DNA from: Hydnum rufescens UP504
Lineage: Eukaryota; Basidiomycota; Agaricomycetes; Cantharellales; Hydnaceae
Reading direction: 5' to 3'
Length of the DNA: 64,000 nucleotides
Assembly (NCBI GenBank): GCA_014904985.1
Contig: MU128934.1
Span: 29,055-93,054 of the forward strand
Shown: in pieces, positions 3,262 through 60,650 of the stretch
Numbering within the stretch: position 1 is the first letter of the stretch
Layout: each line of letters opens with the position of its first letter
Program-made: the position numbers and the translations under genes
The notes under the pieces: model-generated
Seen by the model: the letters and a program-made list of their open reading frames with translations, nothing else
Databases searched by the model: none
Told to the model about the DNA's origin: nothing

Positions 3262-3356
3262 GTGCGGGCCTTTGCAGTTTTGTTCCTGGTTTTTGTTTGT
3301 GTGGTCATGTGTGGTTTCGTTCCTGGTTTTCGTTCTGGGCATGTCATTCCAGCCCT

Positions 3357-3474
3357 TAGCTGTAGTATAGATATATCAAACATGGTATCATACCAGTGTT
3401 AATTAATATATGAGACCCACTAACTACCACAATGGTAACTACCATGCCTATATATCAGGATGTATCAGTACTGC
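3357..3474. repeat. Partial copy of the SINE-like/TATATCA repeat
   Basis: The motifs AGATATATCAAACATGG, TTAATTAATATAT and TATATATCAGG occur in the same order as in 12116-12215 and, inverted, in 9890-9985. This is a diverged third copy of that repeat, without the tRNA-like part. It ends where the solo LTR begins. Confidence 0.6.
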
Positions 3475-4016
3475 TGTAACAAAGTGCCTCCCAGTTCAGG
3501 AGGGCACCTGTTGTCATACTTGGACAAAGTGGAGTTGACAGGGGAGGGAGTAGGAATAGGGAGAAGAGGAGAAGGGGTAATCACACCACCCTTAGCACTG
3601 GCTTCAGGTGGGGGAGCTGCAAACAGGGCTAAGCACTGGCTTTGCCCTGGACACAGGAGAAAAGAGTGCGAGGGAGTGGGAGTCATGGTGAAAGATAGTA
3701 AAGTAGTGACTGGCCAAGTGGCACAGTCACTACCTAAGGAGAGAGAGGGGGTCAGTGAGAGGGGAGGGCTGTCCTACTCACTGCTTTCCCAGCTAGGGTC
3801 CAAAGGTGCAGTCCCAAAGCCAGGGAAAGGGCTAGTATTGATGGCTACTAGACAGGCCAACCAGCTAGGCAGATAGAAGCAGAGTAGAGACAGGTATTCA
3901 TGGTTTCTCACTAGGTGATGAAGATCCAGGCAAAGGTTAACTTGATTAATCTCGGCAACTGCCATATATACATGACTTTTGAGTCCTAACTTAATTACGT
4001 AATACACTATATTACA
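3475..4016. mobile_element. Solo LTR (family 1, copy A)
   Basis: A 542-bp unit starting TGTAACAAAG and ending CTATATTACA. It is nearly identical by eye to 25807-26349. The 5 bases before it (3470-3474, ACTGC) are repeated exactly after it (4017-4021), a 5-bp target site duplication. TG...CA ends plus a 5-bp duplication without internal coding sequence identify it as a solo LTR left by LTR-LTR recombination. Confidence 0.9.
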
Positions 4017-4021
4017 ACTGC

Positions 4022-4167
4022 AGTACCAGCCAAATAGGCTGCATTGCCATTTCATTGCTTGTCACTGCCCCTTTAAATATTATTACTATATTGGGAATTC
4101 CCATATTAGGATTTATTTATTATATTATCTAATATTCAATATTTACATTTAATATTTATATTTAATC
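4022..4167. other. AT-rich spacer
   Basis: Very AT-rich sequence between the solo LTR and the start of the cassette array, with many ATATTTA-like runs. No gene or repeat with a partner is seen. Confidence 0.4.
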
Positions 4168-4442
4168 CTGAAAATACTACATTAGCTGCATTCAAAAGAG
4201 GCCACATTGACTTACCCTATTATGAATGAACCATAATGCCTCGCCCAGGTATCATGCAGTACAGGTTTCAATCATGCAGGTGGGTGTTGATTGTGCGGGT
4301 ACAGGTTTTGATTGTGCAGGTACAGGGTTTTGTCACATGGGTATGGAATTTTGTCACATGGGTATGGGGTTTTGTCGCATGGGTATGGGGTTTCATCGCA
4401 CAGGTATGGGATGTCCTGACCTTCTGCGCCAGTAGAGGTAAT

Positions 4443-6145
4443 CTAGAGTAATAAGTGATGTGTGAGTTAGAAAGAAAGAAGAGCCAGCACCAAAAGAGCA
4501 GCCTTTGCTACTCTTTTGGTGCTGGTGGACTGAGACTAATTGATGACTCACCTGATATTACCACACCTGCTGCTGCAGGTGTGGTAACATCACATAGGGC
4601 TGGACCCTCAGAATTTTCAGCAGCTGCACACATAGGTACTACAGGGGGGCTTCATCCGTACTCTTGTTGGGCAGATTTTGGTGCAGGGGGGGACCTAGAA
4701 TAACTCATACGTTATGTTAGTAAAATCAAAGAGAAGCAGCACCAAAAGAGCAGCTGCAGCTGCTCTTTTGGTGCTGCTGCAAGGAGAAACTCACTAGATG
4801 GTACCACACACCCACTCTGGCGGGTGTGTGGTACCGTATTTCACCTGTCATTGCGTACAGTTGAGGGCAGGCTCTGATTGGGTCTTGAGTGGCTGTGCGC
4901 GTCCATAGTTCGTCCTGGGTCTCACAGGACCCCTGCAAGCACTGTTAGAGGTGAGATCCAAGGTTCCCAGATTTTGAGGGTGATTTTGAGATTATGCAAG
5001 GGGCAAATTCCCGGATCTGGAGCCAAAATTTGGTGTCGGCCAATGGTGAGGTGAGGGGTAGGTTCCTGGATTTGGCTCTTCAACCAAACTAGGCTAGATC
5101 TGAAATCCTGTCTCTAGGGGTGTGGTCTGGATGGTGTTATAGTAATGTGGGGTCCAAGTGCCTTTGGTACTATTATAGTAATGTTCTGTGTTCAACCCTG
5201 GGTAGGTGTGTTTCTTTTTGGCTTCTAAAATACCTACAGAATGTTACTTTATGGCTTCCTGCAGTACTTAACTACTCCAGGAAACTTGGTATGCACTATT
5301 GTGAAATTGAACAGCCTCACTTTAATGACTTATCCTGGTCAACCAAATTCCAAATGCCTGAATTGCTATTCTACCATCAGCACTGCCCAAGAGCTGGACA
5401 AGGAGAAAAAGGTGGAGGATGGAAGAGAAGTTTAGATGATAGTGGGGTTGAGTACACTTGCCTTGGACAACACTGGGGATGCCTGGAGTAGTTTGGGAAG
5501 GTCAGGGATTTTTTTGGGATTTTTGGAATTTTTTGAGAATTTTTTGAGGCTAGGGGCAAATTCCCAGTTTTTCATGGCCTGTGAAGAGCCTAGAGTCAAT
5601 TTCCCAGATTTGGTCTGGGATTTGCATCCAAATTTGTACTGGGAGTCAGGGTCCTTTGGGTCGCCTGCTGGATCTCACCTCTAACAGTGCTTGCAGGGGT
5701 CCTGGTCTCACCCACATTCTTGTCAGATTGGGTTTTGTGCAAGGAGGGACCTACAATAATAAATAACATGTTAGTAAAAAAAATAAAAGAAAGGTAGCAC
5801 CAAAAGAGCAGCTGGTGCTGCTCTTTTGGTGCTGTTGTACGGGCTAGGAGGAGAAACTCACTGGATAGTACCACACACCCGCTGCAGTGGGTGTGTGGTA
5901 CCATATTCTGCCTGTCGTCACATGGGTTTGGGGGCTGTGCATGTATGGTCTTGCATGGATTTCAGCCCTCATTAATTTTTGGGTGGCCCCTGGGTTTTGT
6001 ATCATTGTCATTTGGGTTGGGGGTGAGGGCCTTAGACCTAGAGTGGGGTGGTATGGTGTGTTAGTGAGAGTCTTAGAGAAGTGCAAAGAGGGCAGCTTTC
6101 ACTGCCCTTTTTACACAGGTGTATCTAGTAGGAGGGGGGACTCAC
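4443..6145 (-). repeat. Cassette block 1 (4 intron-like units, leftward)
   Basis: Intron-like units on the minus strand at 4443-4551, 4695-4794, 5751-5861 and 6038-6145, each with a GTGAGT donor, a P2 palindrome, a CTAAC/CTAAT branch-like motif and a TAG acceptor. P1 palindromes sit just upstream of the donors at about 4558-4587, 4801-4834 and 5869-5901; the fourth unit has lost P1 and has a variant P2 (GGGCAGC...GCTGCCC type). The exon-like segment at 4226-4451 after the last acceptor contains repeats of a 16-21 bp unit whose minus-strand translation is PHTHATK-like. No continuous reading frame joins the exon-like parts. Confidence 0.75.
4926..5703. mobile_element. MITE with 35-bp perfect terminal inverted repeats and 8-bp TSD
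   Basis: The ends AGGACCCCTGCAAGCACTGT... and its reverse complement form a perfect 35-bp terminal inverted repeat. The 8 bases GGTCTCAC are duplicated at 4918-4925 and 5704-5711. The paralogous site in the right arm (about 18700-18712, minus strand) has a single GGTCTCAC and no insert, an empty site that confirms the boundaries. 8-bp duplications are typical of hAT-type transposases. The 778-bp interior has no convincing gene, so the element is non-autonomous. Confidence 0.9.
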
Positions 6146-6248
6146 TTGTGTACTCATGGTGTGTGTGGTCCTGTTCTAGTTTTGTGGGGATCCTGTTGGT
6201 CGCATGTCCTATGTATGAGCGATGTGGATTAGGTAAGCATCAAAACAA

Positions 6249-6594
6249 ACACTGAATGCCAGGAGTTTCTGGGCTTGAATGAGCACCCAATTAGGGGCAG
6301 TACAAAGCTCATGGATAGATAGTAAATACCTAGATAGAAAATAAAGACTATATTTCATGGGCGACGAAACTAATGGGACAATTGAGCCAATTTTCAATTT
6401 CTCGCACCTTCAATTTCCTATTTAGGAAATTGAAGGTGCGAGAAATTGAAAATTGGCTCAATTGTCCCATTAGTTTCGTTGCCCATGAAATATAGTCTTT
6501 ATTTTCTATCTAGGTATTTACTATCTATCCATATGAGCTTTGTACTGCCCCTAATTGGGCACTCATTGGAGCCTGGAAACTCCTGGCATTCAGT
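6249..6594. repeat. Palindromic centre 1
   Basis: Arms 6249-6420 and 6423-6594 are near-perfect reverse complements with a 2-base centre (TTCCTA-TT-TAGGAA). Cassettes to the left run leftward and cassettes to the right run rightward, so this is the divergence point and possibly a bidirectional promoter or a replication/fold-back centre. The same centre recurs at 17821-18166. Confidence 0.85.
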
Positions 6595-7327
6595 AGCATC
6601 TTCAGATCTACTCATCAAAGGCACCCGAAACAAGCACAACACAGTGCCACACACCCCCCGGGGCAAGTGTGTGGCACTATTAGGTGAGTTTTTCCTTCAT
6701 GGGGTGTACCACGACACCAAAAGAGCAGTGCTAGCTGCTCTTTTGGCATTGCTTGAATTTTTTTTTTGTATTAACATCTTCTTATTCTAGGTCCATTCTC
6801 CCTCTGCGAAACCCCACCCGAAGAATGTACTGACAGGGCCCAGGGAATATGGGGGTTCACGCAGCCATTCAAGACCCCAATGGTCAACTATCTGCAACAT
6901 GCAACAAATCAAACATGGTGCCACACACCTGCTTTGGCAGGTGTGTGGCAATATTAGGTGAGTTTTTTCTTTACAGGGTGTACCACAATGCCAAAGAGCA
7001 CATTAGTTGCTCTTTTGACATCATCTTCAGTTTTTTTTTTCTTACTAATGTCTTATTATTCTAGGTACCTCCACTGTGCAATACCCCCACTGATGAGGTT
7101 CAAGATGAATACTAACCCACACAGCCACCCAGACCCCGATCCTCTGCGACAATGAACTAAATGCAGGACCACACACCTGCTCTGGTGGGTGTGTGGTAAT
7201 GGCTGGTACATTTCTCCCTGCGGCATGTACAACAGCACCCAAAGAGCAGCAGTAGCTGCTCTTTGGGTGCTGCTTCTGTTTTTTTTTTTGTTTTAAACTA
7301 ATGTATTATTTATTATTCTAGGTCTCC

Positions 7328-8174
7328 TGTCAGGATTAAATTGACATTTGCTTCTGCTTAAGGACTTACCCGTTGGAGTATCATTCTGGATCAACTCTAT
7401 CATATGGTGCCTACTTCCTCAAATGCTCTTGTCTCCTCTCTCCCTCCATTCACTAAGGGGGTTATTGTCATCCTTGCCATTATTGGCATTTCTCTTATTA
7501 TTATTGCCCCTGTTCTATTGGGCCTCAGCCAGCGGGCTATGGGCTGGGTAGTCAACCAGTGGCAGCATTGGTGCCCTTGTCAGCACCTGTCATTCCCTCA
7601 CTCCCCACATGAGTCCATGGAGTTGCCAATCCAGACTCCCCCTCCTCCTCCTCTGCCCCCAGTCCCTGAATCCACATCATCTGTCCCAATCCATACTCCA
7701 TCCACATCATTACAGTCCTTCGACACTTTGGACACCTTTGGAGTACCCAGGCGTACACTGCCTTGGAAGTACATATGCTAAGGGGGATACATATGGAAGT
7801 TGGGGCATAGCCATGTGGAGGTGCACACAGGATTCATAACACAGCTGCATCAGCTTAGTGAGGCTTAGTGATGGTGGTTGTGGAGGCTGACTGATGGGCT
7901 GTGGAGCTGGCACTCTAGGAGGATCTGGAAGGTTATGGAAGCTGGCAGAAGGCTCTGGAAGGTTGGAGGCTGTGTGCAGGAAATAGTATTTATAGCCCTT
8001 CGCAGTTGGGGGATCACCAGTTTCGATCTCTCAGGATTCCCACTGCGATAGGTGCGAGACTTGTTTGTCCCTTGCTGTGTGGTGTATACTCAGGATTCCC
8101 ACTGTGATAGCATGTGGTTAATTAATCTCTTTCCTCTTTCTGTTTGTGGCTTCGATGGCAGTGTCGCCCTGACA
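7328..8174. mobile_element. Solo LTR (family 2) inserted in the left arm
   Basis: An 847-bp unit beginning TGTCAGGATTA and ending GCCCTGACA (TG...CA with inverted TGTCAGG/CCTGACA ends). The 5-bp target TCTCC is duplicated at 7323-7327 and 8175-8179. The right arm (about 17357-17363, minus strand) holds the uninterrupted empty site, with acceptor CTAG followed directly by GTCTCCCCTTGATGC. The insertion therefore came after the two arms arose. Confidence 0.9.
7404..7781 (+). CDS. Hypothetical 125-aa membrane-type ORF inside the solo LTR
   Basis: The frame gives a short N-terminus, one strong hydrophobic helix (about residues 19-40, VIVILAIIGISLIIIAPVLL), a cysteine pair (CPC), then a proline/serine-rich tail (about residues 75-110) ending KYIC. 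It lies wholly within the LTR. I do not recognise a family. It may be a chance frame in C-rich DNA, but the segregation of hydrophobic and proline-rich parts is unlike its surroundings. Confidence 0.25.
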   Translation: MVPTSSNALVSSLPPFTKGVIVILAIIGISLIIIAPVLLGLSQRAMGWVVNQWQHWCPCQHLSFPHSPHESMELPIQTPPPPPLPPVPESTSSVPIHTPSTSLQSFDTLDTFGVPRRTLPWKYIC

Positions 8175-9754
8175 TCTCCCCTTGATGCATGAAACCCCAC
8201 CTGACAAGAACACAGGATGAAAAATGGATGTGCACAGCCACCCGGAACCTGATCCAAGAACCCAGTGCCTGAACACCCACAAGCTACATGATGATGGATG
8301 AAATACAGTACCACACACCCCTGCAGGGTGTGTGTGGTAATACTAGGTAAGTCCTCAATTACAGGATGTACAGCAGTGCCAAAAGAGCAGCAGAAGCTGC
8401 TCTTTTGGCACTGCTTGTGTTTTTTTTTCTGTTACTAATGTATCATTATTCTAGGTCTCTTCTCCCACTACAAAACCCCACCTGAAGCAAGCACAGATGA
8501 AACCCAGGGTGAAAACCGAGTGTGTGCAGTGACCCAAAGGCCCCACCCCCAAGCACCCATAATGTACACGACAACTTAAATATGGCACCACACACCCACT
8601 GCAGCAGGTGTGTGGTAAAATCCAGTGAGTCTTTAATTATGATGTGTACAACAGTGCCAAAAGAGCAGCAGAGGCCACTCTTTTGGCGCTGCCTCTTGTT
8701 TTTTTTTAAATTAATGTATCATTCCTTATTGTAGATTACCCCCACCCCCACAAAAGTCCACCCAATGAGAAGACCAACAAGGCCCCACACAAAACGATGC
8801 ACAGCCGCTGAACACCGCCCAAGCACCCAGCACCCCAATGCTCACAACCTATGCAATGAGAGGTCAAGCACGATACCACACACCCACTGCAGTGGGTGTG
8901 TGGTAATCTCTGGTAAGTTCTTCCTTATAGCATGTACAATGGCACCAAAAGAGGAGTACAAGCTTCTCTTTTGGTGCTACTTCTGGTTTTTTTTATTAAC
9001 ATATTATTTGTTACTCTAATCCCTCTCCTGCATGAAAACCCCTGCGAATGCCCAGCCACTGAAGACCACACCCACGGGCCCAGCCCTGAACACTGCAACC
9101 CACATGACAATGGACAAAGTACAGTACCACACCTGCTGTGGTGGGTGGGGTCATACCAGGTAAGTTTTAATTACAGTTTGTTCAATGGCACCAAAAGAGC
9201 AGCAGAAGCTGCTCTTTTGGCGCTGCCTCTGGTCTTTTTTTTACTAACCCACCATTCATTATTCTAGACTGTCCCCACACAAAAACCTGCCCAGCAAGAA
9301 CATGAAGAGGCCCTCAAAAATATGAATGCACAGCTGCCAAAGACTCGTGCAAGGGCCATGAGAACGAAACCTGAAACCCACATGAGCACAAAGACCTGTA
9401 CAAGCCTGGGCTCATGGACCTGTATGAATATCCGCCCAAGCCCCCCATAGTAGCAGTAATAAATAATAATAATAATAATGAACTTCAGCCTCCATGTACA
9501 TTAGTAATGAATAATAAAAGCTTGTGATCATCCTGATAAGCCAGCCCATATAGCCCACTGACCCATTTAGGGACATGCCAGGACCTATCTCAATACCCCC
9601 ATCCAAATATATCCATATGTGGATGCATTTGATCCCACATCAGTTGGTGACTGATGCAGTAACCCCATGTATTACCAATGATATCTGCAGGGATATGGCT
9701 GCCGATAGAAATCCTTCAAGTATATAGAGGAGTTCAAGACCCAAATAGTGTACA

Positions 9755-9985
9755 AGATGAGTTAACCTAGTTGGTTTGAGCACCTGGAGTTCCTCATGTA
9801 TTGGCACATTGTGGGTTCAAACCCTGTGAAGTGCATAATTCTGGGCTTGATTTTTGAAACCTTGTGCATGGGCTCCTGATATATCAGCCATGGCAAGTTA
9901 CCTGTGGTGACTACTGGGCTTGATATATTAATTAGACATGGTACCATACCATGTTTGATATATCAGCACTACAGCTAGTGGTGGG
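9755..9985 (+). repeat. tRNA-related SINE-like repeat (copy in left arm)
   Basis: The head has an A-box-like stretch (TAACCTAGTTGGTTTGAGC, about 9763-9781) and a B-box-like stretch (GGGTTCAAACCC, about 9811-9822) at tRNA-like spacing. It is followed by about 150 bp containing two TGATATATCAG motifs and an internal ACATGGTACC/GGTACCATGT-like palindrome. It does not fold as an intact tRNA gene (no proper acceptor stem seen). Copies: 12116-12350 inverted and 3357-3474 partial. Confidence 0.55.
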
Positions 9986-10055
9986 GTGTGTGGTACTGTC
10001 TTTGGGCCCTAGCCAGTTGGGCCTCCTCATTGGGCACCTGGGACAAAGCCATAAC

Positions 10056-10194
10056 CTAGAATAATGAAAGTTGTTAGCAAAGAAATTACAAATAGCACAA
10101 AAAGAGTAGCTTTTGCTACTCTTTTTGCACTGTTGTACCTACTAGAATAAAAACTCACCTTATGACCACACCTGCAGCAGCAGGGGTGTGGTCA
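10056..10194 (-). repeat. Cassette block 3 (1 unit, leftward)
   Basis: Intron-like unit 10056-10158 on the minus strand with P2 of the compensated form GAGTAGC...GCTACTC, and P1 at about 10164-10194 (ACCACACCTG...GGGGTGTGGT). Confidence 0.7.
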
Positions 10195-10237
10195 TTGTGT
10201 GGTCATTTCTGTTGTTGGGTGTGGCTGCATAGTTGTG

Positions 10238-10891
10238 AAATTCAACACTGGCAATTGCCGATACTCAAGAAGTGCCCAAGTGCTGGCACCACAAACACAG
10301 CACACATTAATAGCAAGCATGTATATGTGAAATAAATACTATATAATAAATATGAGCCCAAGAAAATCTGAAGAAGAAGATGATAATGAGTCAGAGCTCA
10401 ATAAGGCATGAGATGGCTAATTGTAAAGCGGATTGGGCCACTTCTATGCATTGGAATTGGCCCAAATTTAAATATAGTGATGTTATATATACAACCTATG
10501 TGGTCGATTGATTACCTTGGACGATTCTCGCATTTTTCAATTTTTCATGCCTTCAATTCCCTATTTATGGAATTGAAGGCATGAAAAATTGAAAAATGCG
10601 AGAATCATCCAAGGTAATCAATCGACCACATAGGTTGTATATATAACATCACTATATTTAAATTTGGGCCAATTCCGATGCGTAGAAGTGGCCCAATCTG
10701 CTTTGCAATTAGCCATCTCATGCCTTATTGAGCTCTGACTCATTATCATCTTCTTCTTCAGATTTTCTTGGGCTCATATTTATTATATAGTATTTATTTC
10801 ACATATACATGCTTGCTATTAATGTGTGCTGTGTTTGTGATGCCAGCACTTGGGCACTTCTTGAGTATCGGCAATTGCTGGTGTTGAATCT
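10238..10891. repeat. Palindromic centre 2
   Basis: Arms 10238-10560 and 10569-10891 are near-perfect inverted copies about 323 bp long around an 8-base loop. The innermost motif (TTCAATTCC...GGAATTGAA, then CATGAAAAATTGAAAA) is related to the centre at 6421, so the centres are one family. TATATA-like stretches occur in both arms. Confidence 0.85.
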
Positions 10892-10946
10892 ACATCTTGC
10901 TTCCATTTATGCAACCACAACAAGCTGCCCAAAAAGGCAAGCACAT

Positions 10947-12060
10947 GACCACACACCCACCGCTGCGGGTGTGTGGTCACAAGGTGAGTGTTTCTTTTTA
11001 GTAGATACAATGGCACAAAAAGAGCAGTGAAAGCTGCTCTTTTTGTGCTGCTTTGGAACTTTTTACTAATGTGCCTTTATTTATTTTAGATTGAGGCCAC
11101 ATCCAATGCATGACAAGAGCCCAAACACCAATGTGATGCACAGCAATGTGACATGGCAGCACAATGCAACACAGCAGCATGACACCCAGCAATGTGACAC
11201 ACAATGCACCAAATGGCAACATGCCAAACAGCAATGTGCCAAACAGTAACGCACCAAACGGCAACATGCCAAACGGCAATGTGCCAAACAAGGATGCAAC
11301 TGTGTCAAATGATGCCCCAGGAATCACACACCCATCACGGCAGGTGTGTGGTTCCATATCAGGTAAGTTCCTGTCCCCCCCCAGTAGCTAGAGCCACGCA
11401 AAAAGAGCAGCTTTTGCTGCTCTTTTTGTGTGGTGTTCTATTCTTAACTAATTTAAAACTATTATTTTGTAGGTATGACAATAACCTGCAAAACAATGAG
11501 AGCAATGCCACACACAGCAATGTGACATGGCAATGCGATACACAACACAGCAATGTGACATGCCAACAATGTGACATGTGGCACCACACCAAATGAGGAT
11601 GCAGCCCACAGCAATGCACCAAAGAAGGGCCTGGAATCACACACCTGCCACGGTGGGTGTGTGGTTCTATATATAAGGTAAGTCCCCCCTCCCCTCAGTA
11701 GCTACAGCCATGCAAAAAGAGCAGTGAAAGCTGCTCTTTTTGCATGGTTTTTAATTTCTAACTAACTTAAAAGTTTTGTCTTGTAGGTCTCCACATCCCC
11801 TGAAAATGAATACTGAGGCAAAACCCCTGTCCCCCCCTCCCTCATCAACACCTGAACGACAGGCACCCGTATGAACCCCTGCATGTATGAGTGAGAGTAC
11901 ACGGCCCCAGTACCCTACACCACTGCAGCAGGTGTGGGGTACTCCAAGGTATTTTATTTATTTTTATCTATTCCTTATTCTTGTGGTGCAAAAAGAGCAG
12001 CATAAGCTGCTCTTTTTGGGCTGCATTCATGTTTAACTAATTTGTTAACTACTTCTCTAG
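10947..12060 (+). repeat. Cassette block 4 (4 units, rightward)
   Basis: Intron-like units 10984-11089, 11363-11472, 11678-11786 and 11949-12060; P1 at about 10947-10979, 11322-11353, 11635-11666 and 11912-11941. The outer P2 stem here is of the GCAAAAAGAG/CTCTTTTTGC type. The exon-like spacers at 11105-11320 and 11480-11630 are made of short repeats around AACAGCAATGTGCCA; in one frame they read asparagine/proline-rich (NVPNSNAPNGNMPN). Confidence 0.7.
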
Positions 12061-12115
12061 ATATTGGAACAGAACCTGCATGAACCCCCGACCACAGACC
12101 CACTGAATGACCACC

Positions 12116-12350
12116 ACTAGCTGTAGTGCTGATATATCAAACATGGTATGGTACCATGTCTAATTAATATATCAAGCCCAGTAGTCACCATAGGTAACTT
12201 GCCATGGCTGATATATCAGGAGCCCATGCACAAGGTTTCAAAAATCAAACCCAGAATTATACACTTCACAGGATTTGAACCCATAATGTGTCAATACATG
12301 AGGAACTCCAGGTGCTCTAGCCAACCAGGTTAACTCATCTTGTACACTAT
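12116..12350 (-). repeat. tRNA-related SINE-like repeat (copy in right arm)
   Basis: Inverted counterpart of 9755-9985, with the same A-box-like and B-box-like stretches on the minus strand (B-box-like at about 12279-12291). It lies at the inner end of the right arm. Confidence 0.55.
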
Positions 12351-12827
12351 TTGAGTTTTGAACTCCTCTATATACTTAAAGGATTTCTATTGGCGGCCAT
12401 ATCCCCACAGATATCATCAGTAATACCAGTGCATGGGGTTACTGCATCAGTCACCAACTGATGCGGGATCAAATACATCCACATATGGATATATTTGGAT
12501 GGGGGTATCAAGATAGGTCCTGGCGTGTCCCTAAATGGGTCAGCAGGCTATAAGGGCTTATCAGGATAATCACAAGCTTTTATTATTCATCACCCAGAGG
12601 CTTCATTATTATTATTATTATTTATTACTGCTACTACATATGGCAGGGGGGCTCAGGTGGGTATTCATACAGGTCCACAAGCCCAGGCTTGTACAGGTCT
12701 TTGTACTCATGTGGGTTTTGGGTTTCATTCTCGTGGCCCTTGCATGTGTCTTTGGCAGCTGCACATTCATATTTTGTTCAAGGGCCTCTTTGTGTTCTTG
12801 CTGGGTGGGTTTTTGTGTGGGGACAGT

Positions 12828-14466
12828 CTAGAATAATGAATAGTGGGTTAGTAAAAAAAACCAGAGGCGGCGCCAAAAGAGCAGCTTCTGCTGCTCTTTT
12901 GGCACCATTGTACAAACTGTAATTAAAAACTTACCCAGTACTACCCCACCTAGGCTATTGCACAGGGTCCCCGCGGGGGAATTTAGGACATCCCGCCCTG
13001 TGGGGTTGAAAACCCGCCCCCGTGACTCACGGGGGTCGAAGCCGCGGGATACATGACGGGGTTGAAAAACCCAAGGAGAACCCGCGGGAAACCCACAGGA
13101 CAATATCCTCATCCTATTCTGTATATGGCCCATAGTAAGAGGGCCAGAAGATTATTTAACATTTATTTATTTATTTATTATAATTATATACAATATAAGT
13201 CAGATTTCATGTGGGGCCTTGGCCATGTTCTCATCGGGTGAGTATTCATGCAAGGAGGGGCAACAGGATGTGTGGCTCCAAGGATAGGGTGGCATTCACG
13301 TGGGTTTTGATTGGGTGTTCATATCGGGTTGCAGGTGGCTGCACAGGTCCGTGTTTCGCCTTGGACCTTGGCTCTGTTCTTGTCGTGGGGTTTCATAGAT
13401 CGAGAGGACACCTAGAATGATTAAGAATACATTAGTTTTAGAAAAAACAGAAGTAGTGCCCAAAGAGCAGCTACTGCTTCTCTTTGGGCGCCATTGAACT
13501 TACAACTATTACCACACACCCACCGCGGCGGGTGTGTGGTATGAGATTAAGTCCATCGTCATGTTCAAGACTCGGGGCTTGGGCAGCTGCGCATTGAATT
13601 TTGTGTTGAGGGCTCATGCATGTCGTTGTTGGGCGGGTTTTCACTTAGGGAAGGGACCTAGAACAACGATAAATAATATGAGTAAAAAAAAGAAAACAGA
13701 GGGGTGCCAAAAGAGCAGCTCCTGCTGCTCTTTTGGCACCGGTGGGATTAGACATACCTGATGTCACCACACACCCGCCGAAGCGGGTGTGTGGGTGCTG
13801 TATCTGATTTGTCGTCGTGTTATAGCTCGCTGATACTTGGGGGTTGGGGTCTGGGTGGCTGCGTGCTCCGTATTTTGCCATAGGCATTGTCTCTGCTTTG
13901 ATTGGGGCAGGGTTTTGGGGAGGGAGAAAGAGCCTAAAATAGTGGATACGTTAGCAAAAAAAATAATACAAGCAACGCCAAAAGAGCAGCTGGTGCTGCT
14001 CTTTTGGCATCGTGGTACACCCCATGAAGAAAATACTCACCTAATATTGCCACACACCTGCTTCAGCAGGTGTGTGGCACTGTATTTGAGGCCTCGTTTT
14101 ATTGGTGGCGGATAGTCGATCATTGGGGTCTTGCGTGGCTGCGCGCACTCGCGTATTTCGCCCTGGTAATCGTCATTGTCGGTTCTGGTGGGTGCTGGTG
14201 CGGGATTTGTGCAGGTCTGTTGATCAAGTGTGACCTAGAATAATAAATACATTAGTAAAGAATGAAAAAAAATACACTTACCTACACCCCCGCCGCAGCA
14301 GGTGTGTGGTGCCTCCTCTTTTCCGGTATCATCATTGTCGGTTCTGGGAGGTGCTGGTGGGGGGTTTGTGTGGGTCTGTCGATCGAGCGCGATGCGATGA
14401 CCTAGAATAATAAATACATTAGTAAAAAAAGAAAAAAGAAAAAAGAAAAAAGAAAAAAAAACATAC
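12828..14466 (-). repeat. Cassette block 5 (6 units, leftward)
   Basis: Intron-like units 12828-12934 (belongs to the right arm), and inside the hAT-like element 13412-13503, 13658-13757, 13934-14040, 14235-14281 and 14402-14466. P1 lies at about 13510-13541, 13765-13797, 14048-14080 and 14281-14312. The last two introns are only 47 and 65 bp and have no P2 palindrome, yet keep donor, branch motif (CTAAT) and TAG acceptor. Confidence 0.75.
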
Positions 14467-14473
14467 AGTAAGT

Positions 14474-14790
14474 TTACTGAGGCACCCAGGAATTTGGGCC
14501 CCACATGTGAATCCATGCCAATGGCATTGGAAGCCTCATCGATATTAGCACCCGTGGCTTCACAAATGGCCGAAAGTGCATTAATTGAGGAGATTCTCCA
14601 TTAGTGGAGAAGAAGAGGTTGCGACCGCGAGCTTGGCGGACAATGTCCTCCTGACCAGGCTCGTAGATAGGAATGTTGGAATCGGGTGAATTCCACGCAT
14701 CAATACGTGCCTGGTTGAAGTCAACTTTCCTCGGTCTTGATATCGGCATTTGCCGGCATCGAAAGTCGTTCTACAACCACCAAGGGATCG
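14474..14790 (-). pseudogene. Captured, internally deleted UDP-glucose 6-dehydrogenase fragment
   Basis: Two separate pieces of a UGDH are fused. The first (about 14740-14600, minus strand) reads VDFNQARIDAWNSPDSNIPI and on to YEPGQEDIVRQARGRNLFF, the region following the N-terminal Rossmann strand. The second (about 14598-14474) reads [20 protein letters not shown] and on to [14 protein letters not shown], from the central domain. About 150 residues of the normal protein are missing between them, and there is a frame change at the junction. No intron interrupts the pieces. It sits at the divergence point between leftward and rightward cassettes. It cannot encode an active enzyme. Confidence 0.85.
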
Positions 14791-14806
14791 AATGACAGAA
14801 AGCAGG

Positions 14807-15930
14807 ACCACATACCTGCTGTGGCGGGTGTGTGGTCATACGAGGTAAGTATTTATCCTTTACATACATCCACACAAAAAGAGCAGCAACAGCTGCTCTT
14901 TTTGCGTTGGTTTTAAATTTTTAACTGACATTATCCTAGGTCATCGCCTGAACCGGAACCGGCAAATGAACACCCCCCAAACAACAATCCACGGAACAAG
15001 AACACGCCAAATGGCGGTTTTCAAGACGATAACCCACCAAATGATGATCCGCTGAATGAGTACCACACACCCGCCGCGGCAGGTGTGTGGTAACATAGGT
15101 AACTTTTCGTTTGATTGCAATACCTACAGCGGCGCAAAAAGAGCAGCGAAAGCTGCTCTTTTGTGCCGTTATTATTATTATTCTTAACTAACATATTACT
15201 TTATGATAGGTCTCCCCATCATCCACACAAGCCCCGAGCAAACACCTGACCCAATGCCCACACTGCGGCACCCCACAAAACGTACACCCACCTGGTAAAT
15301 GAAAACCCCCCAAACAAAAAGGAATACCACACACCCACTGCGGTGGGTGTGCGGTACTATATAAGGTGAGTTCCCCCCCCTCGGTAGATACACCCGCACA
15401 AAAAGAGCGAAAGCAGTTCTTTTTGTGCCAGTTTTACGACTTAAGCAACTAACATTTTTCTTTTTAAACTGTAGATGTTCCTAATCTGCACGAGACCATG
15501 GTATCATCCCCCGCCCCCATGAATCGATTCGAACGAAACCCCATGCGACCCCCATACGAAAAAACCAGACATGAGCCCATACGGACCCCTCGATTGACAC
15601 GAGCAGCACAATATGAGTACCACACCCGCTAGAGCGGGTGTGGTACTACAAGGTTTTTTTTTTAAATTAATTCTGTATATGTAAGTGGCACAAATAGGGC
15701 AGCACAAGCTGCCCTTTTTGGGTCACTTTTGACTTATTCTAGATCATCCGACTGACACCACCTGCCGAACCCCCTGCACCTGCGAGACCCCCATACGAAA
15801 AACCGGGCACAAGCTCGTACAGACCCCACCATCGAAATAAAACGAGGTACCACACACCCACTGGGGCGGGTGTGTGGTACTAGAATGTATGTTTCATTTT
15901 TCAATCTGATGTATATATCTTTGATCCTAG
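14807..15930 (+). repeat. Cassette block 6 (5 units, rightward)
   Basis: Intron-like units 14845-14939, 15099-15209, 15366-15474, 15653-15742 and 15887-15930; P1 at about 14807-14838, 15060-15093, 15324-15357, 15618-15647 and 15847-15881. The last intron is only 44 bp and lacks P2. CpG dinucleotides are still frequent here, unlike the rest of the island. The exon-like piece 14940-15098 is open in one frame (proline/asparagine-rich) until a stop just before the donor; the next piece is closed in every frame near its end. Confidence 0.75.
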
Positions 15931-16244
15931 ATCATGTGACAGAGACCGCCAAGTCCTGAATGAACAACCAACCGAACCCTCAACAATGAAAACCCATACT
16001 AGAACCTCCCCCCCCTGAACAACCAACCACATCCTGAGCTCCCTGAGCCCCTACTGCTATACAATGTATATATAATAGTAAATAGTGATAAATAATGACA
16101 TAGTTATGGTAACAGTAAGTTACTGCACCAGAGGTAAAATATTAGCTAGTAACTTAGCAGTTCTGGTGCAATACAATTGCACCATACCATGTTAGATGAC
16201 TATCAATCTATGGCATGGACTGATTCAAACCCTTGGTACATATT
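15931..16244. other. Spacer inside the hAT-like element
   Basis: No cassette or gene is visible. A short inverted motif around AGTTACTGCACCAGA / TTCTGGTGCAATAC (about 16117-16172) is present. Confidence 0.4.
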
Positions 16245-16509
16245 GCCGGGGTTGGCGGGTTCTTGGTGGGTTTTAGCCATGGGTCCACATTGTTACTCCC
16301 ACCCCGCGGGGATCTCCCCCGCGGGGTCAAAACCCATGGGTTTCAAAACCCCATGCAATACCCTAACCCCACCTGCCACAGCAGGTGTGGTACCATGCTT
16401 TGTCCATCATCATGCCAGTTGCAGTGTTCAGGGGCTGGGCCCTCAGGCATAATCTTTGGCAGCTGGGTGTTCATATTTTGTGTGGGGGGTTTTTGTGCAA
16501 GGAGAGGGA

Positions 16510-17772
16510 CTAGAATAATGAATAATATGTTAGTAAAAAAAAAACCAGAAGTAGCACCAAAAGAGAAGCTTGTGCTCCTCTTTTGGTGCCATTGTACATG
16601 CTATAAGGAAGAACTTACCAGAAATTACCACACACCCACCACAGCGGGTGTGTGGTATTGTGCTTGACCTCTCATTGCATAGGTTGTGAGCATTGGGGTG
16701 CTGGGCACTTGGGGGGTGTTTGGTGGCTGTGCATTGTTTTGTGCAGGGGCCACATTGGTCTTCTGATCAGGCAGACTTTCATGTGGGTGGGGGTAATCTA
16801 CAATAAGGAATGATACATTAGTTTAAAAAAAACGAGAGGCAGCACCAAAAGAGCGGCCTCTGCTGCTCTTTTGGCACTGTTGTACACATCATAATTAAAA
16901 ACTCACTGGATTTTACCACACACCTGCCACAGTGGGTGTGTGGTGCTGTATTTAAGTCATCGTGTACATTATGGGTGCTCAGGGGCAGGGGGCGGGGCCT
17001 TTGGGTCACTGCCCATGCTTGGGTTTCACCCTGGGCTTCATATGTGCTGGCTTCAGGTGGGGTTTCATAGTTGAAGAAGAGACCTAGAATAGCGACACAT
17101 TAGTAACAGAAAAAGAAAACACAAGCAGTGCCAAAAGAGCAGCTTCTGCTGCTCTTTGGTGCTGCTGTATGTCCTGTAATTGAGGACTTACCCAGTATTA
17201 CCACACACACCCCGCAGGGGGCGTGTGGTACCGTATTTCATCCGTTGTGTAGCTTGTGGGTGTTCGGGCACTGGGTTCTTGGATTGGGTTCTGGGTGGCT
17301 GTGCACGTCCATTTTTCATCCTGTGTTCTTGTTGGGTGGGGTTTTGTGCATCAAGGGGAGACCTAGAATAATAAATAATACATTAGTTTAAAACAAAAAA
17401 ACACAAGCAGCACCCAAAGAGCAGCTACTGCTGCTCTTTGGGTGCTGTTGTCTGTTGTACATGCTCCAGGGAGAAACTTACCAACTATTACCACACACCC
17501 ACCAGAGTGGGTGTGTGGTCCTGCATTTAGTTTGTTTTCATGGAGGATTGGGGTCCAGGTGGCTGCGTGCATTCATATTTGTCTTGAACCTCATCAGTGG
17601 GGGTATCACGCAGTGGAGGTACCTAGAATAATAAGACATTAGTAAGAAGAAAAAAAACTGAAGATGATGTCAAAAGAGCAACTAATGTGCTCTTTTGGCA
17701 TTGTGGTATGCCCCATGAAGGAAAAACTCACCTAATAGTGCCACACACTCACCCCAGGGGGTGTGTGGCACC
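16510..17772 (-). repeat. Cassette block 7 (5 units, leftward)
   Basis: Intron-like units 16510-16618, 16798-16906, 17084-17191, 17363-17481 and 17633-17731; P1 at about 16371-16395, 16624-16656, 16914-16945, 17198-17231, 17489-17520 and 17738-17772. These are the right-arm counterparts of block 2. The 17633-17731 intron is a hybrid of two left-arm introns (see findings). Confidence 0.75.
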
Positions 17773-17820
17773 ATGTTGTGCTTGTTTCGGGTGCCTTTGA
17801 CAAGTAGATCTGAAGATGCT

Positions 17821-18166
17821 ACTGAATGCCAGGAGTTTCCAGGCTCAAATTAGTGCCCAATTAGGGGCAGTACAAAGCTCATATGGATAGATAGTAAATA
17901 CCTAGATAGAAAATAAAGACTATATTTCATGGGCAATGAAACTAATGGGATGATCAAGCCAATTTTCAATTTCTCACACCTTCAATTTCCTAAATAGGAA
18001 ATTGAAGGAGTGAGAAATTGAAAATTGGCTCGATCATCCCATTAGTTTCGTCACCCATGAAATATAGTCTTTATTTTCTATCTAGGTATTTACTATCTAT
18101 CCATATGAGCTTTGTACTGCCCCTAATTGGGCACTCATTTGAGCCTGGAAACTCCTGGCATTCAGT
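17821..18166. repeat. Palindromic centre 3
   Basis: Arms 17821-17992 and 17995-18166 around the centre TTCCTA-AA-TAGGAA. It is the right-arm copy of centre 1, with cassettes again diverging from it. Confidence 0.85.
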
Positions 18167-18271
18167 GTTTGTTTTGATGCTTACCTAATCCACATCATTC
18201 ATATATAGGACATGTGACCAACAGGATCCCTGTGAAACTAGAACAGGACCACATACACCATGAGTACACAA

Positions 18272-19191
18272 GTGAGTCCCCCCTCCTACTAGATACACCC
18301 ATGTAACAAGGGCAGCGAAAGCTGCCCTCTTTGCACTTCTCTAAGACTCTCAATAACACACCATACCACCCCACTCTAGGTCTAAGGCCCTCACCCCTGA
18401 CCCAAATGACAACAATACAAAACCCAGGGGCCACCCAAAAATTAACAAGGGCTGAAATCCATGCAAGACCATACATGCACAGCCCCCAAACCCATGCAAC
18501 AATGGGCAGAATATGGTACCACACACCCACTGCAGCAGGTGTGTGGTACTATCTGGTGATTTTCTCCTCCTAGCCTGTACAACAGCACCAAAAGAGCAGC
18601 ACCAGCTGCTCTTTTGGTGCTACCTTTCTTTTATTTTTTTTACTAACACATTATTTATTATTGTAGGTCCCTCCTTGCATGAAACCTGATCTGACAAGAA
18701 TGTGGGTGAGACCCAGGATGAACTACGGATGTGCACAGCCACTCAAGACCCAATCAGAGCCTGCCCTCAACTGTACACAATGACAGGTGAAATACAGTAC
18801 CACACACCCACCAGAGTGGGTGTGTGGTACCATCTAGTGAGTTTCTTCTTGCAGCAGCACCAAAAGAGCAGCTGCAGCTGCTCTTTTGGTGCTGCTTCTC
18901 TTTGATTTTACTAACATAACATATGAGTTGTTATTCTAGGTCCCCCCCTGTGCCAAAATCTGCCCAATGAGAGTATGGATGAAGCCCCCCTGTAGTGCCT
19001 ATGTGCGCAGCAGCCAAAAATTCCGAGGGTCCAGCCCTATGCAATGTTACCACACCCATGGCGGTGGGTGTGGTAATATCAGGTGAGTCATCAATTAGTC
19101 TCAGTCCACCAGCACCAAAAGAGCAGCAAAGGCTGCTCTTTTGGTCCTGGCTCTTCTTTCTTTCTAACTCACACATCACTTATTACTCTAG
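18272..19191 (+). repeat. Cassette block 8 (4 units, rightward)
   Basis: Intron-like units 18272-18379 (P2 variant GGGCAGC...GCTGCCC), 18556-18666, 18837-18939 and 19083-19191; P1 at about 18514-18548, 18797-18830 and 19049-19075. Right-arm counterpart of block 1. Splicing the first donor to the first acceptor gives one exon open in frame (about 18380-18555), but the following exon contains a stop. Confidence 0.75.
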
Positions 19192-19219
19192 ATTACCTCT
19201 ACTGGCATGGAAGGTCAGG

Positions 19220-19345
19220 ACATCCCACTCCAATGAAACCCATACCTGTGCAACAAAACCCCATACCCATGCAACAAAACCCCATACCCATGTGACAAAA
19301 TTCCATACCCATGTGACAAAACCCCATACCCACACAATCAACACC
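19220..19345 (+). repeat. Short tandem repeat in an exon-like segment
   Basis: About five tandem copies of a unit around CAAAACCCCATACCCATG, 19-21 bp long. One frame reads PHTHATK-like heptads. The inverted counterpart in the left arm is 4290-4415. Confidence 0.7.
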
Positions 19346-19439
19346 CACCCACATGATTGAAACCTGTACCACATGATACCTGGGCAAGGCATTATGGTTC
19401 ATTCATAATAGGGTGAGTCAATACATGGCCTCTTTTGAA

Positions 19440-20550
19440 TGCAGCTAATGTAGTATTTTTGGGAGTACGCTGCTCCTTTTGCATGGCTTTTCTTTTTTTT
19501 GTTACTAACATATTATTCATTATTTTAGTTTGTTATCTGGACCCAACACCCACAACCCCACCAAACGAACATGGGAGAACAATGATCCACCCACCAAACG
19601 AATCCCAAATGGCACCAAGTCGAAACCATGACACAAGCCCCAGATGAACCCCACACCTGCTTCAGCAGGTGTGTGGTAATTTTAAGGTGAGTACAACTGC
19701 ACAAAAGGAGCAGCATATGCTGCTCCTTTTGTGTGGCTTTTCTTTTCTTTTTTTTGTTACTAACATATTATTTATTATTCTAGTTTGTCATCTGGACCCA
19801 ACACCTGCGACCCTGCTGAACGAACATGGGAGAATGACAACCCACCCACAAAATGAATCCCGCAAGTGGCACTGAGTCAAAACCACTACACAAGCCCTGG
19901 ATGAACCCCACACCTGCTTCAGTGGGTGTGTGGTAATTTTAAGGTGAGTAAAACCATGCAAAAGGAGCAGCATACACTGCTCCTTTTGCATGGCTTTCTT
20001 TCTTTTTTTTTGTTACTAACATATTATTCATTATTCTAGTTTGTCATCTGGACCCAACACCTGCAACCCTGCCAAATGAACACAGGAGAACAACGACCCA
20101 CCTGCCAAACAAATCCCACAAATGGCACCGAGTTGAAACCATGATGCAAGCCCTGGACAAACCCCACACCCACTTTGGCGGGTGTGTGGTAATTTTAAGG
20201 TGAGTACAACCGCACAAAAGGAGCAGCGTACACTGCTCCTTTTGCATGGCTTTTCTTTTTCTTTTGTTACTAACATATTATTTATTATTCTAGTTTGTCA
20301 TCTGGACCCAACACCCACGACCCCGCTGAACGAACACAGGAGAATGATGACCCACCCATGAAATGAATCCCACAAATGGCAATGAGTCAAAACCCCAACA
20401 CAAACCTTGGATGAACCCCACACCTGCTGAAGCAGGTGTGGTAATTTTTGTAGCCCTCTAGAAGTACAACCGTGCAAAAGGAGCAGCATGGGCTGCTCCT
20501 TTTGCATGGTTTTTCTTTTTTTTTAACTAACTTATTATTTATTATCATAG
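19440..20550 (+). repeat. Four-copy tandem array of a 255-bp cassette subtype
   Basis: Starts with half an intron (P2 to acceptor, ending 19528), then repeats at about 255-bp period: introns 19687-19783, 19944-20039, 20200-20293 and a damaged one ending 20550. P1 lies at about 19647-19676, 19906-19934, 20162-20190 and 20417-20443. This subtype has P2 of the form AAAAGGAGCAGC...GCTGCTCCTTTT. Exon-like parts all start TTTGTYATCTGGACCCAACA. The copies are very similar, so this is a recent local amplification. Confidence 0.8.
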
Positions 20551-20687
20551 GGTATTCTTCTGAACCCACACCCCCCAACTGAAGCCATGGCCCCACTGAG
20601 TGAAACCACACAACCATGGGGGAGGGAGAACCCCAACAGCAACCTGTAACCAATGCCCAATGGTGAAGCATGAAGTGATGTCCCCAG

Positions 20688-20860
20688 TACCACACACCCG
20701 CCTAAGTGGGTGTGTGGTGCTGCTAGATAGTATTTTTTTAATTTTTTAATTTTTATAGACAGTACCACACCTGCCCAGGCAGGTGTGGTACTATTAGATA
20801 GTTTTTTTTTTTAAATTTCTATGGATGGTACTACACACCTGCCCAAGCAGGTGTGTGGTA
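20688..20860. repeat. Three P1 palindromes in tandem without introns
   Basis: P1-type palindromes at about 20690-20720, 20761-20793 and 20829-20859, separated by about 40 bp of T-rich DNA containing TAGATAGT or similar, with no P2, donor or acceptor between them. This marks the right end of the array. Confidence 0.75.
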
Positions 20861-59009: not shown

Positions 59010-59311
59010 TACCACACACCCACTGCACCCACCGCAGCGGATGTGTGGTTCCTGGGGGGCACTCATTGGGCATGTTGCCGTTTGGCAGCTTCTCATTGTG
59101 CCTTGTATTTCGTCTGGTGGCCAGGTTTTCATTCAGCGGGTTGTTGGCTGGTGGGTGGTTGCTCAGGGCTTGTGCGGGTTCCGATCATGCATGACCTACA
59201 ATATTAAAAGATACATTAGCATGAAAATTTGCAGCAGCGCAAAAGAGCAGCTTCTGCTGCTCTTTTTGCACTGTTGTATGTACTACAATGAAAAGTAAAA
59301 ATAAAAAGTAC
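59010..59311 (-). repeat. Second cassette locus, leftward unit
   Basis: One intron-like unit on the minus strand at 59196-59311 with GTAC donor, P2 (GAGCAGC...GCTGCTC) and GTAG acceptor. P1 palindromes at about 59316-59345 (next to the donor) and 59010-59051. Same architecture as the array at 4-20 kb. Confidence 0.7.
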
Positions 59312-59716
59312 CTTGTGACCACACCCACATTGGCGGATGTGTGCTCGGGTGCTTGCCTTTCTAGGCGGCTGCTGGGTGTGGTCATGTAGTTACGAAGAGA
59401 GAACTCAATGCCGGAAATTGCCAGAATCCAAAAAGTGTTCAATTCCTGCCGGTGCCCAAAGCACAATATAGATTAATAGCAAGTGTTCAGACATGTAATA
59501 AGTACTATATAAATATCTATCCAAAAACACGAGGACTACCACAATAATAAGTTGGAGCTCAATAAGGCATGATTGTGCTTCTGGTGCTGGGACTTGGGCG
59601 CTTTTTGGATTCCGGCAATTTCCAGCATTGAGTTCTCTCTTCACTACCACACCCAGCAGCCGCCTAGAAAGGCAAGCACCCGACCACACACCCGCCGATG
59701 CAGGTGTGGTCACAAG
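59312..59716. repeat. Degraded palindromic centre of the second locus
   Basis: 59312-59430 and 59610-59716 are inverted copies (CTTGTGACCACACCC..., AGGCGGCTGCTGGGTGTGG). The middle (59430-59600) retains sequence related to centre 2 at 10.24-10.89 kb, such as ATTAATAGCAAG and GCTCAATAAGGCATGA, but is no longer palindromic. Confidence 0.7.
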
Positions 59717-60650
59717 GTACTTTTTATTTTATTTTTTTCATTGTAGTACATACAACAGCACAAAAAGAGCAGCGGAAGCTGCTCTTTTGCGCTGCTGTGA
59801 ATTTTCATGCTAATGTATCTTTTAATATTGTAGGTCATGCATGATCGGAACCCGCACAAGCCCCAAGCAACCACCCACCTGCCAACAACCCACTGAATGA
59901 AAACCTGGCCGCTGGACAAAATACAAGGCACAATGAGAAGCTTCCAAACGGCAACATGCCCAACAAGTGCCCCCCAGGAACCACACACCCGCTGTGGCAG
60001 GTGCAGCAGGTGTGTGGTACTATAAAAGGTGAGTATTCCCTCCAGTATACACAGCTGTGCAAAGGTTTTGGTATTTACTAATGTATTTTTTTTTAAACTC
60101 CAGGTGCGCATATCAACACTGAACTGAAGCCCATATGACCCCCTGTATGAAAAACTGGGCACAAGCCCACATTGACCTCGCTGTCCACATCAACGCCAAA
60201 CCATGAGGTGCCATACACCCGCTGGAGCGGGTGTGTGGTACCAAAAGGTATGATTTTTCTTTTCTATTTTCTATGTGTATGTGGCGCAAAAAGGGCAGTG
60301 CAAGCTGCCCTTCTAACATGTATTTGTCTTATTCTAGATCGTGTGACAGTTATCACCCAAGCCTGAACAAACCACCAGCCCCCGGCGACAAGAACCCCTG
60401 CACCCGCGTATCAACACTGAACCAAAGCCCATGCAACCCCCTGTATGGAAAACCGGGCACGAGCCCATATTGACCCCACCGTCCACATCAACACCAAACT
60501 GTGAGGTACCACACACCCACTGGAGCGGGTGTGGCACTAAAAGGCATGATTTTCCTTTTTTAAATCTAATTTTCTATGCGTGTGGTGCAAAAAGGGCAGC
60601 ACAAGCTGCCCTTTTTGCATCACTTCTAATGTATATTTGTTTTATTCTAG
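59717..60650 (+). repeat. Second cassette locus, four rightward units
   Basis: Intron-like units 59717-59833, 60029-60103 (P2 mostly lost), 60248-60337 and 60544-60650. P1 lies at about 59680-59712, 59980-60021, 60207-60243 and 60501-60538. The third and fourth have P2 of the GGGCAGY...GCTGCCC form. The fourth has a GC donor (GCATGA) where its sister has GTATGA. Confidence 0.75.

Follow-up and report, generated by a model that had tools for sequence, protein, structure and literature searches.

The usual view of transposons is that their cargo is genes, or hardly anything. In a 64,000-nucleotide stretch of the Hydnum rufescens UP504 genome (GenBank assembly GCA_014904985.1, contig MU128934.1, positions 29,055 to 93,054 of the forward strand; the whole stretch is called the window here), transposons were found whose body is an array of exon-intron units, termed cassettes, each with two palindromes, P1 and P2. 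H. rufescens is an ectomycorrhizal hedgehog mushroom (PMC7550596). The cassettes fill non-autonomous DNA transposons with inverted ends, which belong to at least three terminus families, designated A, B, and C. The new part is this intron-array body, common to the three families; a limited search of the open-access literature, a narrow basis, revealed no description of such an element.

The closest described systems share some of these features. Among the KDZ transposons of Agaricomycotina (Kyakuja, Dileera, Zisupton), Kyakuja elements in Laccaria have CA...TG ends and a 7-bp target duplication, and the duplication of Zisupton is 8 bp (PMC12730594). Family A has CA...TG ends and a 7-bp duplication, as Kyakuja does, and family B has CA...TG ends with a duplication of the Zisupton length, 8 bp. 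An element end located about 300 bp beyond a KDZ gene in another H. rufescens locus (L073) matches B in 11 of the first 12 bases and then differs. Unlike two Laccaria Kyakuja families, which have none, A has inverted repeats of about 105 bp, and the available part of the KDZ account makes no mention of intron arrays (PMC12730594). No transposase was recognized by eye among the frames of at least 60 amino acids in one A copy and one B copy, no domain search of the elements having been run. Family C resembles hAT elements in its 8-bp duplication and short inverted ends (TAGGSTATTGCA), but its interior consists of cassettes and a captured gene fragment, with no open frame of at least 150 amino acids. 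A, B, and C are therefore classed as non-autonomous transposons with inverted ends rather than assigned to the KDZ or hAT superfamilies.

Pack-type elements (Pack-MULE and kin) and foldback elements provide two further comparisons. Like Pack-type elements, C has inverted ends that enclose fragments of a cellular gene, and the captured fragment exists in multiple copies; unlike in those elements, the body is mostly intron cassettes and not captured genes. The mirror-image arms of tandem repeats resemble foldback elements, but the arms described here also contain the signals of spliceosomal introns and, within the intron, a hairpin that covaries. Introners, described in Micromonas and other organisms, lie within gene introns and extend nearly to the splice sites (PMC3488318). 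The cassettes likewise amount to numerous similar introns that have retained their splice signals within a single genome, but exon and intron move together in a larger transposon, which distinguishes them from introners.

A cassette with two hairpins is a major repeat of the genome

A cassette profile was built from 21 hand-picked modules and then iterated (nhmmer). The profile confirmed that the module described in the initial annotation of the window, which was made from the sequence alone, is real: its order is P1 palindrome, about 8 bp, GTRAGT-like donor, about 25 bp, P2 palindrome, T-rich tract, CTAAY, and TTATTCTAG. In the window, 41 non-overlapping cassettes were matched, 35 of which are near full length. 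The annotation had counted about 38 modules in an array and five more at 59.0-60.65 kb, on both strands. The occurrence on both strands was correct; the counts were revised to 37 cassettes at 4443-20550 (14 on the minus and 23 on the plus strand) and, at 59196-60640, four cassettes plus a fifth, partial copy. Rfam families gave no match in the window at gathering score, and a known RNA family was rejected for the cassettes on this result.

A genome-wide search was performed on the assembly of 63.2 Mb in 539 contigs (L-numbers denote loci taken from it; C1-C3, C35, and similar names denote contigs). The strict pattern, GAGCAGCN{2,8}GCTGCTCN{25,55}ACTAAY, combines the hairpin with ACTAAY, and the reversed pattern served as the control. 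The search revealed 1,320 + 1,403 = 2,723 matches, compared with 0 + 0 in the reversed control, so the module is not a product of chance. The cassette is a major repeat of the H. rufescens genome; the genome-wide counts obtained from the cassette search and from the A/B-terminus search are lower bounds.

The window and the loci together provided a pool of 292 distinct cassettes on 32 contigs. After 69 that were not full length were dropped, 223 remained, and dropping another 145 that were at least 85% alike left 78 non-redundant cassettes. Statistics on exons and introns (lengths, phase, composition, open frames) take in near-identical copies. The best donor was GTAAGT or GTGAGT in 191 of the 292 distinct cassettes. 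Tails were readable in 268 cassettes, with CTAAY in 222 and YAG at the expected end in 202. The donor, branch, and acceptor are kept overall, as initially claimed, but the claim that every module is intact failed on these counts. The fixed spacing noted earlier was borne out: predicted introns are tight in length, with a median of 108 nt and quartiles of 101-110 (198 measured). The median exon length is 167 nt (144 measured).

The cassettes fill transposons with defined ends

Element A is 4,802 bp long in L040, and further copies are present in L041, L045, L046, and, twice, in the window. Its left end is common to L040, L041, and L045, and its right end is common to L040, L045, and L046. Element B is 5,005 bp long in L039; L042, L043, L044, and L015 match it at 92-95% in long aligned pieces, and the three left ends compared agree with one another, as do all five right ends. 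The ends are CAGCCCTAGCTG...GCTAGTGGTG in A, CAGCCTGGTCAGCCA...TGGCTGACTGAGTTG in B, and TAGGCTATTGCA...TGCAATACCCTA in C. Inverted terminal repeats measure about 105 bp at 81% in A, about 60 bp in B (imperfect, by eye), and 12 bp with one mismatch in C. The same sharp ends in different flanks were seen for A and B; C was read in one copy only. Target duplications were found in four of the seven elements read to both ends (ATCATTGT, 8 bp; CAGTTGG, 7 bp; GTATAAT, 7 bp; and ACCCCACC, 8 bp) and in none of the other three, namely the first A copy of the window (A1), L042, and L043.

The six unenlarged copies read to both ends (L039, L040, L042, L043, L045, and C of the window) contain 7 to 14 cassettes each. 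Cassettes were present in 22 of 24 loci taken by an A or B terminus alone, several of which repeat elements already found, and in eight of nine terminus-found loci on contigs absent from the cassette search. As the annotation had stated, intron-plus-exon units are amplified together: exon and P1 travel with the intron inside the elements. Self-amplification of the cassette, which it had also suggested, was not borne out. The mobile unit is instead a transposon, about 3.4-5 kb long, that has inverted ends and target duplications of its own. Likewise, the region is not one array. It is a nest of transposons comprising A1, a B-like fragment, a second A copy split by C, and a tandem array of 256-bp units (Table 1). 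The A sequence of the second copy breaks off at 12950 and picks up at 16366, with ACCCCACC on both sides of element C, which split it.

Candidates for an autonomous partner were evaluated. Two hAT-domain matches, C1:908807 and C2:647021, lie near cassette clusters and were rejected, since in L071 and L072 neither was shown inside a cassette-bearing element. In L073, a KDZ gene is positioned upstream of a cassette arm; it was rejected because an element end lies between them, and the arrangement probably reflects nesting. Of 584 candidates for KDZ transposase domains in the genome, 150 were scored and gave 154 matches, some with long open frames, and 90 hAT-domain matches were found elsewhere in the genome. 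The elements are probably moved by transposases of the KDZ or hAT type, which would recognize the ends in trans.

Splice signals are conserved and the P2 hairpin covaries

Conservation was determined in the 78 non-redundant cassettes (less than 85% alike). The donor showed G at 82%, T at 97%, a purine at +3, and A, G, and T at 83, 93, and 95%. The branch A-C-T-A-A was conserved at 90/88/98/87/98% and the acceptor T-A-G at 98/100/100% of the rows reaching it (gaps 25-43%). The filler between the donor and P2 (columns 46-60) reached 44-76%, compared with 82-100% at most splice positions. Donor, branch, and acceptor, conserved in this order, are spliceosomal intron signals and define predicted introns. 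The difference from the filler suggests that the signals are under selection, and the earlier claim that intron signals are kept stands for the set.

In P2, 94% of 1,365 cells are paired, and 119 cells in 13 of 18 pairs are changed on both sides. The covariation score of P1 and P2 together in the window's 38 modules was reached by 0 of 500 shuffles, and slid structures scored far lower; at least as many pairs with changes on both sides were seen in 1 of 500. Changes from the standard pair in P2, counted on a tree, led to G-U in 63 cases versus A-C in 32 (p 0.002). In unpaired columns the two strands did not differ (T at consensus C, 92/426; A at consensus G, 121/554). G-U is stable in the sense-strand RNA, and A-C is not. 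The G-U preference in P2, together with unpaired columns free of strand bias, argues against DNA palindrome repair alone, and the covariation of P2 with this preference is an RNA-level signal. Folding of the 40 hairpins tested gave mean energies of -19.6 kcal/mol for P1 and -28.3 kcal/mol for P2, 6 and 9 standard deviations below shuffles.

The distance from the P1 dyad to the donor, scored in 48 of the 78 cassettes, has a median of 23 nt (5-95%, 20.7-25). The exon junction complex binds 20-24 nt before the junction (PMC4509934), and a Mago nashi domain was found in the genome. The outer stem of P1 is nearly invariant, with 9 changes to G-U versus 3 to A-C. At 20685-20860 of the window, three consecutive P1-like hairpins occur without a donor, P2, or acceptor; P1 may therefore be able to spread, or to be retained, independently of the intron.

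The exons show no clear coding signal

The lengths of 144 exons, taken modulo 3, were distributed as 50/36/58. The proportion of exons with an open frame was 0.47, compared with 0.39 +/- 0.036 in dinucleotide shuffles, a small excess of about 2 standard deviations. Exon bodies barely align beyond composition (0.757 versus 0.733 shuffled) and consist of 33% A, 35% C, and 13% T. CpG is depleted (0.58), and TpG+CpA is raised (1.32), as is expected where cytosines are methylated. The exons show no clear coding signal, in line with the non-coding locus that the annotation had offered as one reading, and the exon phase, the near-chance frequency of open frames, and the lack of exon alignment led to the rejection of a protein-coding array.

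A translated cassette query matched eight public predicted proteins, all from Hydnum rufescens UP504 (BS47DRAFT). A second query gave no protein matches in a search made by translated pieces only, not against DNA of other fungi. One of the gene models, P0010 (BS47DRAFT_1357275), was placed on L071 by exact peptide matches. It takes four cassette acceptors and two cassette donors, and of its six array introns, two coincide exactly with those of cassettes. P0010 looks like the product of a predictor that seeks open reading frames; gene callers see the introns, which as predicted splicing would lend the proposed introns weak support. Public gene models already include cassettes, which represents an annotation hazard.

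Cassettes point outward from central palindromes

Left of a central palindrome, cassettes lie mostly on the minus strand, and right of it they lie mostly on the plus strand; that is, they point outward. This orientation was found for 36 of 41 cassettes around eight centres on C1-C3 and for 88 of 97 around eight centres in fetched loci. Coordinates on C1-C3 were taken from the first 100 match rows, with 19 rows left out as presumed reverse-read donors: 17 of these end in CCTAAT, C3:35565 ends in GCTAAT, and C2:298244 ends in ACTAAT; one CCTAAT row, C2:156766, was kept. Three of the left-out rows are within 2.6 kb of a listed centre, and their addition changes the count from 36/41 to 38/46. Those exceptions that were traced reflect either a neighbouring element counted within 2.6 kb or a doubtful match.

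The centres of A and B differ, yet they have a common dyad, TTCAATTYCCTATTTAGGRAATTGAA, with about 303 sites genome-wide at no more than 2 mismatches and 0 in the control (the palindromic pattern matched 306 + 300). Its core, CCTATTTAGG, resembles a MADS-box (Mcm1/SRF-type) site, and the core of the A1 palindrome, TTCAATTTCCTATTTAGGAAATTGAA, includes a CArG-type box. B matches itself over 1,166 bp at 83%. AATAAA-rich stretches were read in the sequence near the arm ends. Different palindromes are present in other clusters, either between the diverging cassettes (L071) or where an arm begins (L073). At L071:1689-4807, a 3.1-kb palindrome with arms 93% alike is built of cassettes, five on the minus and six on the plus strand; no A or B terminus was matched in this locus.

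Element C carries a captured dehydrogenase fragment

The initial statement that the cassettes are not tied to a recognizable host gene applies in general but not to element C, which carries two joined coding pieces of a UDP-glucose dehydrogenase gene at its centre. The fragment matched PF03721 (E 6e-6; 26.3 bits, just below the cut-off of 27), PF00984 (E 1.5e-6; 28.7 bits, cut-off 25.4), and a UDP-glucose dehydrogenase in the PDB (E 8e-12). All 331 bp are present at 96-100% in 11 loci, including that of the window, and two more loci cover positions 1-319 at 95%; the ten further places (96-98%) include C163, C102, C111, C26:5392, C148, C19, and C333. At C35:71243-72062, two pieces 572 bp apart are 93-94% identical to the fragment, and the site is likely its parent. 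Element C gained the fragment and may then have multiplied with it. A form of the joined fragment that is 73-75% identical occurs in four places, which suggests an older capture or a second lineage.

Interpretation and alternatives

We lean, with slightly better than even confidence, toward the interpretation that the cassettes are exon-intron units filling non-autonomous transposons and that each half of an element is likely an outward, non-coding, multiply spliced transcription unit starting from the central palindrome. The palindrome would act as a two-way promoter, with transcription running outward to the element end, splicing many times per arm, and polyadenylation at the AATAAA-rich stretches near the ends. 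P2 probably would shorten the path from donor to branch. Introns can aid expression in fungi. The leading idea on function, which is speculative, is that an intron-rich RNA would make the element look like a host gene and counter silencing and decay; such a host-like body would stand in a genome with Piwi-domain matches (eight) and CpG depletion. As a guess, P1 at the position of the exon junction complex could block binding of the complex, which would protect the non-coding RNA against nonsense-mediated decay.

A wider proposal is possible but doubtful: the elements would form a class of decoy-gene transposons, with two outward, intron-packed, non-coding units on one palindromic promoter. Splicing would shield them from silencing, and the junction hairpin would exclude the exon junction complex and spare the RNA. 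The body would be common to unrelated families, much as a TET/JBP gene is to others. In at least three terminus families, the transposon body is composed of intron units, thousands in all, that lack clear coding sense. If they are spliced, introns themselves can be cargo selected for by a mobile element, and the elements provide a natural experiment on splicing as a possible protection of mobile DNA against silencing in fungi. The more than 2,700 strict matches are also a large set of related introns with a covarying hairpin for the study of RNA structure in splicing.

Several observations count against the outward transcription units and their hairpins acting as RNA. About one-third of the cassettes have no full GTRAGT donor, and acceptors are lost in some, e.g., two in L039. 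P0010 departs from the cassette signals in four of its six array introns, with donors inside P1 and cryptic sites. In the covariation analysis of the 38 modules, further pair types were reached by 33 of 500 shuffles. The G-U excess lies mostly in the five outer pairs of P2 (96 versus 30 cells), and the 13 inner pairs gave 16 versus 9. Paired changes in palindromes can also arise by template switching or DNA repair without selection. With regard to mobility, no complete autonomous element was found, and the link of A and B to KDZ elements is a resemblance in ends and duplication lengths.

The P1 apex is a further point of this kind, with 29 changes to G-U versus 42 to A-C and no RNA-type preference, so P1 may act as DNA and the idea of an exon junction complex is weakened. 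It bears directly on an unlikely, though not negligible, alternative in which the cassettes are DNA-level repeats (transposase binding sites or cruciforms), one intron-bearing unit having been duplicated by chance with splice signals that have no present role. The nearly invariant outer stem of P1, which is protein-site-like, and the mirror-image arms seen in the B self-match and in L071, as in foldback elements, are consistent with such repeats. A pure DNA role, however, predicts neither the conservation of donor, branch, and acceptor next to filler that is not conserved nor the RNA-type G-U excess in P2.

It is rather improbable that the palindrome gives rise to a long hairpin or antisense RNA that either feeds RNA interference or counters it, with introns that only shape this RNA. 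Near-perfect central palindromes with inverted arms and the eight Piwi-domain matches fit this alternative, and so does the captured fragment with its two near-identical pieces on C35, since element C could then target a host gene. It leaves the outward splice signals with conserved branch and acceptor unexplained, and a single kind of cargo, the dehydrogenase fragment, was recognized in the elements read.

We disfavour, as very unlikely, the view that the arms are decayed protein-coding genes of repeated exons with stops from C-to-T decay. The public annotation predicts proteins from the arms, and the CpG and TpG+CpA values and the small excess of open frames agree with decay, but the exon lengths are not in one phase and the exon bodies hardly align. 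Least probable of all are introner-like elements, single introns that transposed into genes and are piled up here: thousands of similar hairpin introns in one genome would fit, but P1 and exon sequence move with the intron, the clusters lie inside inverted-end elements, and in the sequence fetched, 5 of 292 cassettes lie more than 1.5 kb from any other, of which the one examined (L036) is an element remnant and not in a gene. Introners were rejected on this clustering and on element boundaries, as the mobile unit ends at transposon ends and not at splice sites in the part of the genome's cassettes seen in context. This outcome, including the check for lone cassettes that the annotation had called for, agrees with its view that these are not introners in host genes.

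Map of the window and further observations

The features of the window are listed in Table 1. A1 is swollen by later insertions, and no target duplication was seen for it.

Table 1. Cassette-bearing elements and related features, in window positions (strand + or -, otherwise a point)
Feature	Positions	Strand	Description
Transposon A1	3350..9983	+	Termini CAGCCCTTAGCTG...GCTAGTGGTG; minus left arm, central palindrome, plus right arm; homologous to the complete 4,802-bp copy in L040
A1 left arm	4443..6147	-	Cassettes 4443-4583, 4696-4832, 5751-5899; degenerate 6061-6147 (nhmmer)
A1 central palindrome	6251..6594	.	About 94% self-complementary; core TTCAATTTCCTATTTAGGAAATTGAA
A1 right arm	6647..9267	+	Cassettes 6647-6790, 6921-7064, 7168-7321, 8310-8454, 8587-8734, 8875-9018, 9128-9267
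B-like fragment between the two A copies	~9984..12111	.	Cassette 10056-10192 (-); palindrome 10074-11069
B-like fragment, plus cassettes	10948-11089, 11325-11465, 11638-11777, 11913-12060	+	
Second A copy, terminal part	12112..12950	-	Inverted relative to A1; cassette 12828-12949; 93.5% to L040; end at 12112
Transposon C, 3,415 bp	12951..16365	.	Termini TAGGCTATTGCA...TGCAATACCCTA; 8-bp target duplication ACCCCACC
Element C, minus cassettes	13412-13540, 13658-13794, 13936-14077	-	
Captured UDP-glucose dehydrogenase fragment	14470..14800	-	Two joined coding pieces, centre of element C; domain and PDB matches
Element C, plus cassettes	14807-14934, 15062-15202, 15326-15466, 15621-15740	+	
Second A copy, remainder	16366..19467	-	Five minus cassettes 16510-17768; central palindrome 17821-18166; 91% to L040
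Second A copy, plus cassettes	18270-19191	+	Four; the first, 18270-18349, degenerate
Tandem array of 256-bp exon-plus-intron units	19466..20573	+	19648-19783, 19905-20039, 20161-20293, 20415-20550; partial first unit; TRF 4.2 copies
Second, small divergent cluster	59196..60640	.	59196-59343 (-); 59683-59833, 60211-60323, 60508-60640 (+); partial 59980-60063

Among the cassettes of the array lie a solo long terminal repeat (LTR), a small hAT-like element, and the dehydrogenase gene fragment. The hAT-like element, 778 bp at 4926-5703 inside A1, has perfect 35-bp inverted ends (AGGACCCCTGCAAGC...) and an 8-bp target duplication, GGTCTCAC. The solo LTR, 847 bp at 7328-8174 (TGTCAGG...CCTGACA, duplication TCTCC), directly follows a cassette acceptor and contains, by eye, a short frame whose product would have a hydrophobic stretch and end in a proline-rich tail. 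At 387-452, a terminus resembles the one about 300 bp beyond the KDZ gene of L073 (ACTGACCAGCCTG), and the inner palindrome TTAGGTACC...GGTACCTAA recurs. Frames on the minus strand at 62267-63718, a stretch with a run of N inside, resemble by eye parts of the gene at 56106-57265 (e.g., LTVNSTPK) and perhaps represent a decayed inverted copy of that gene.

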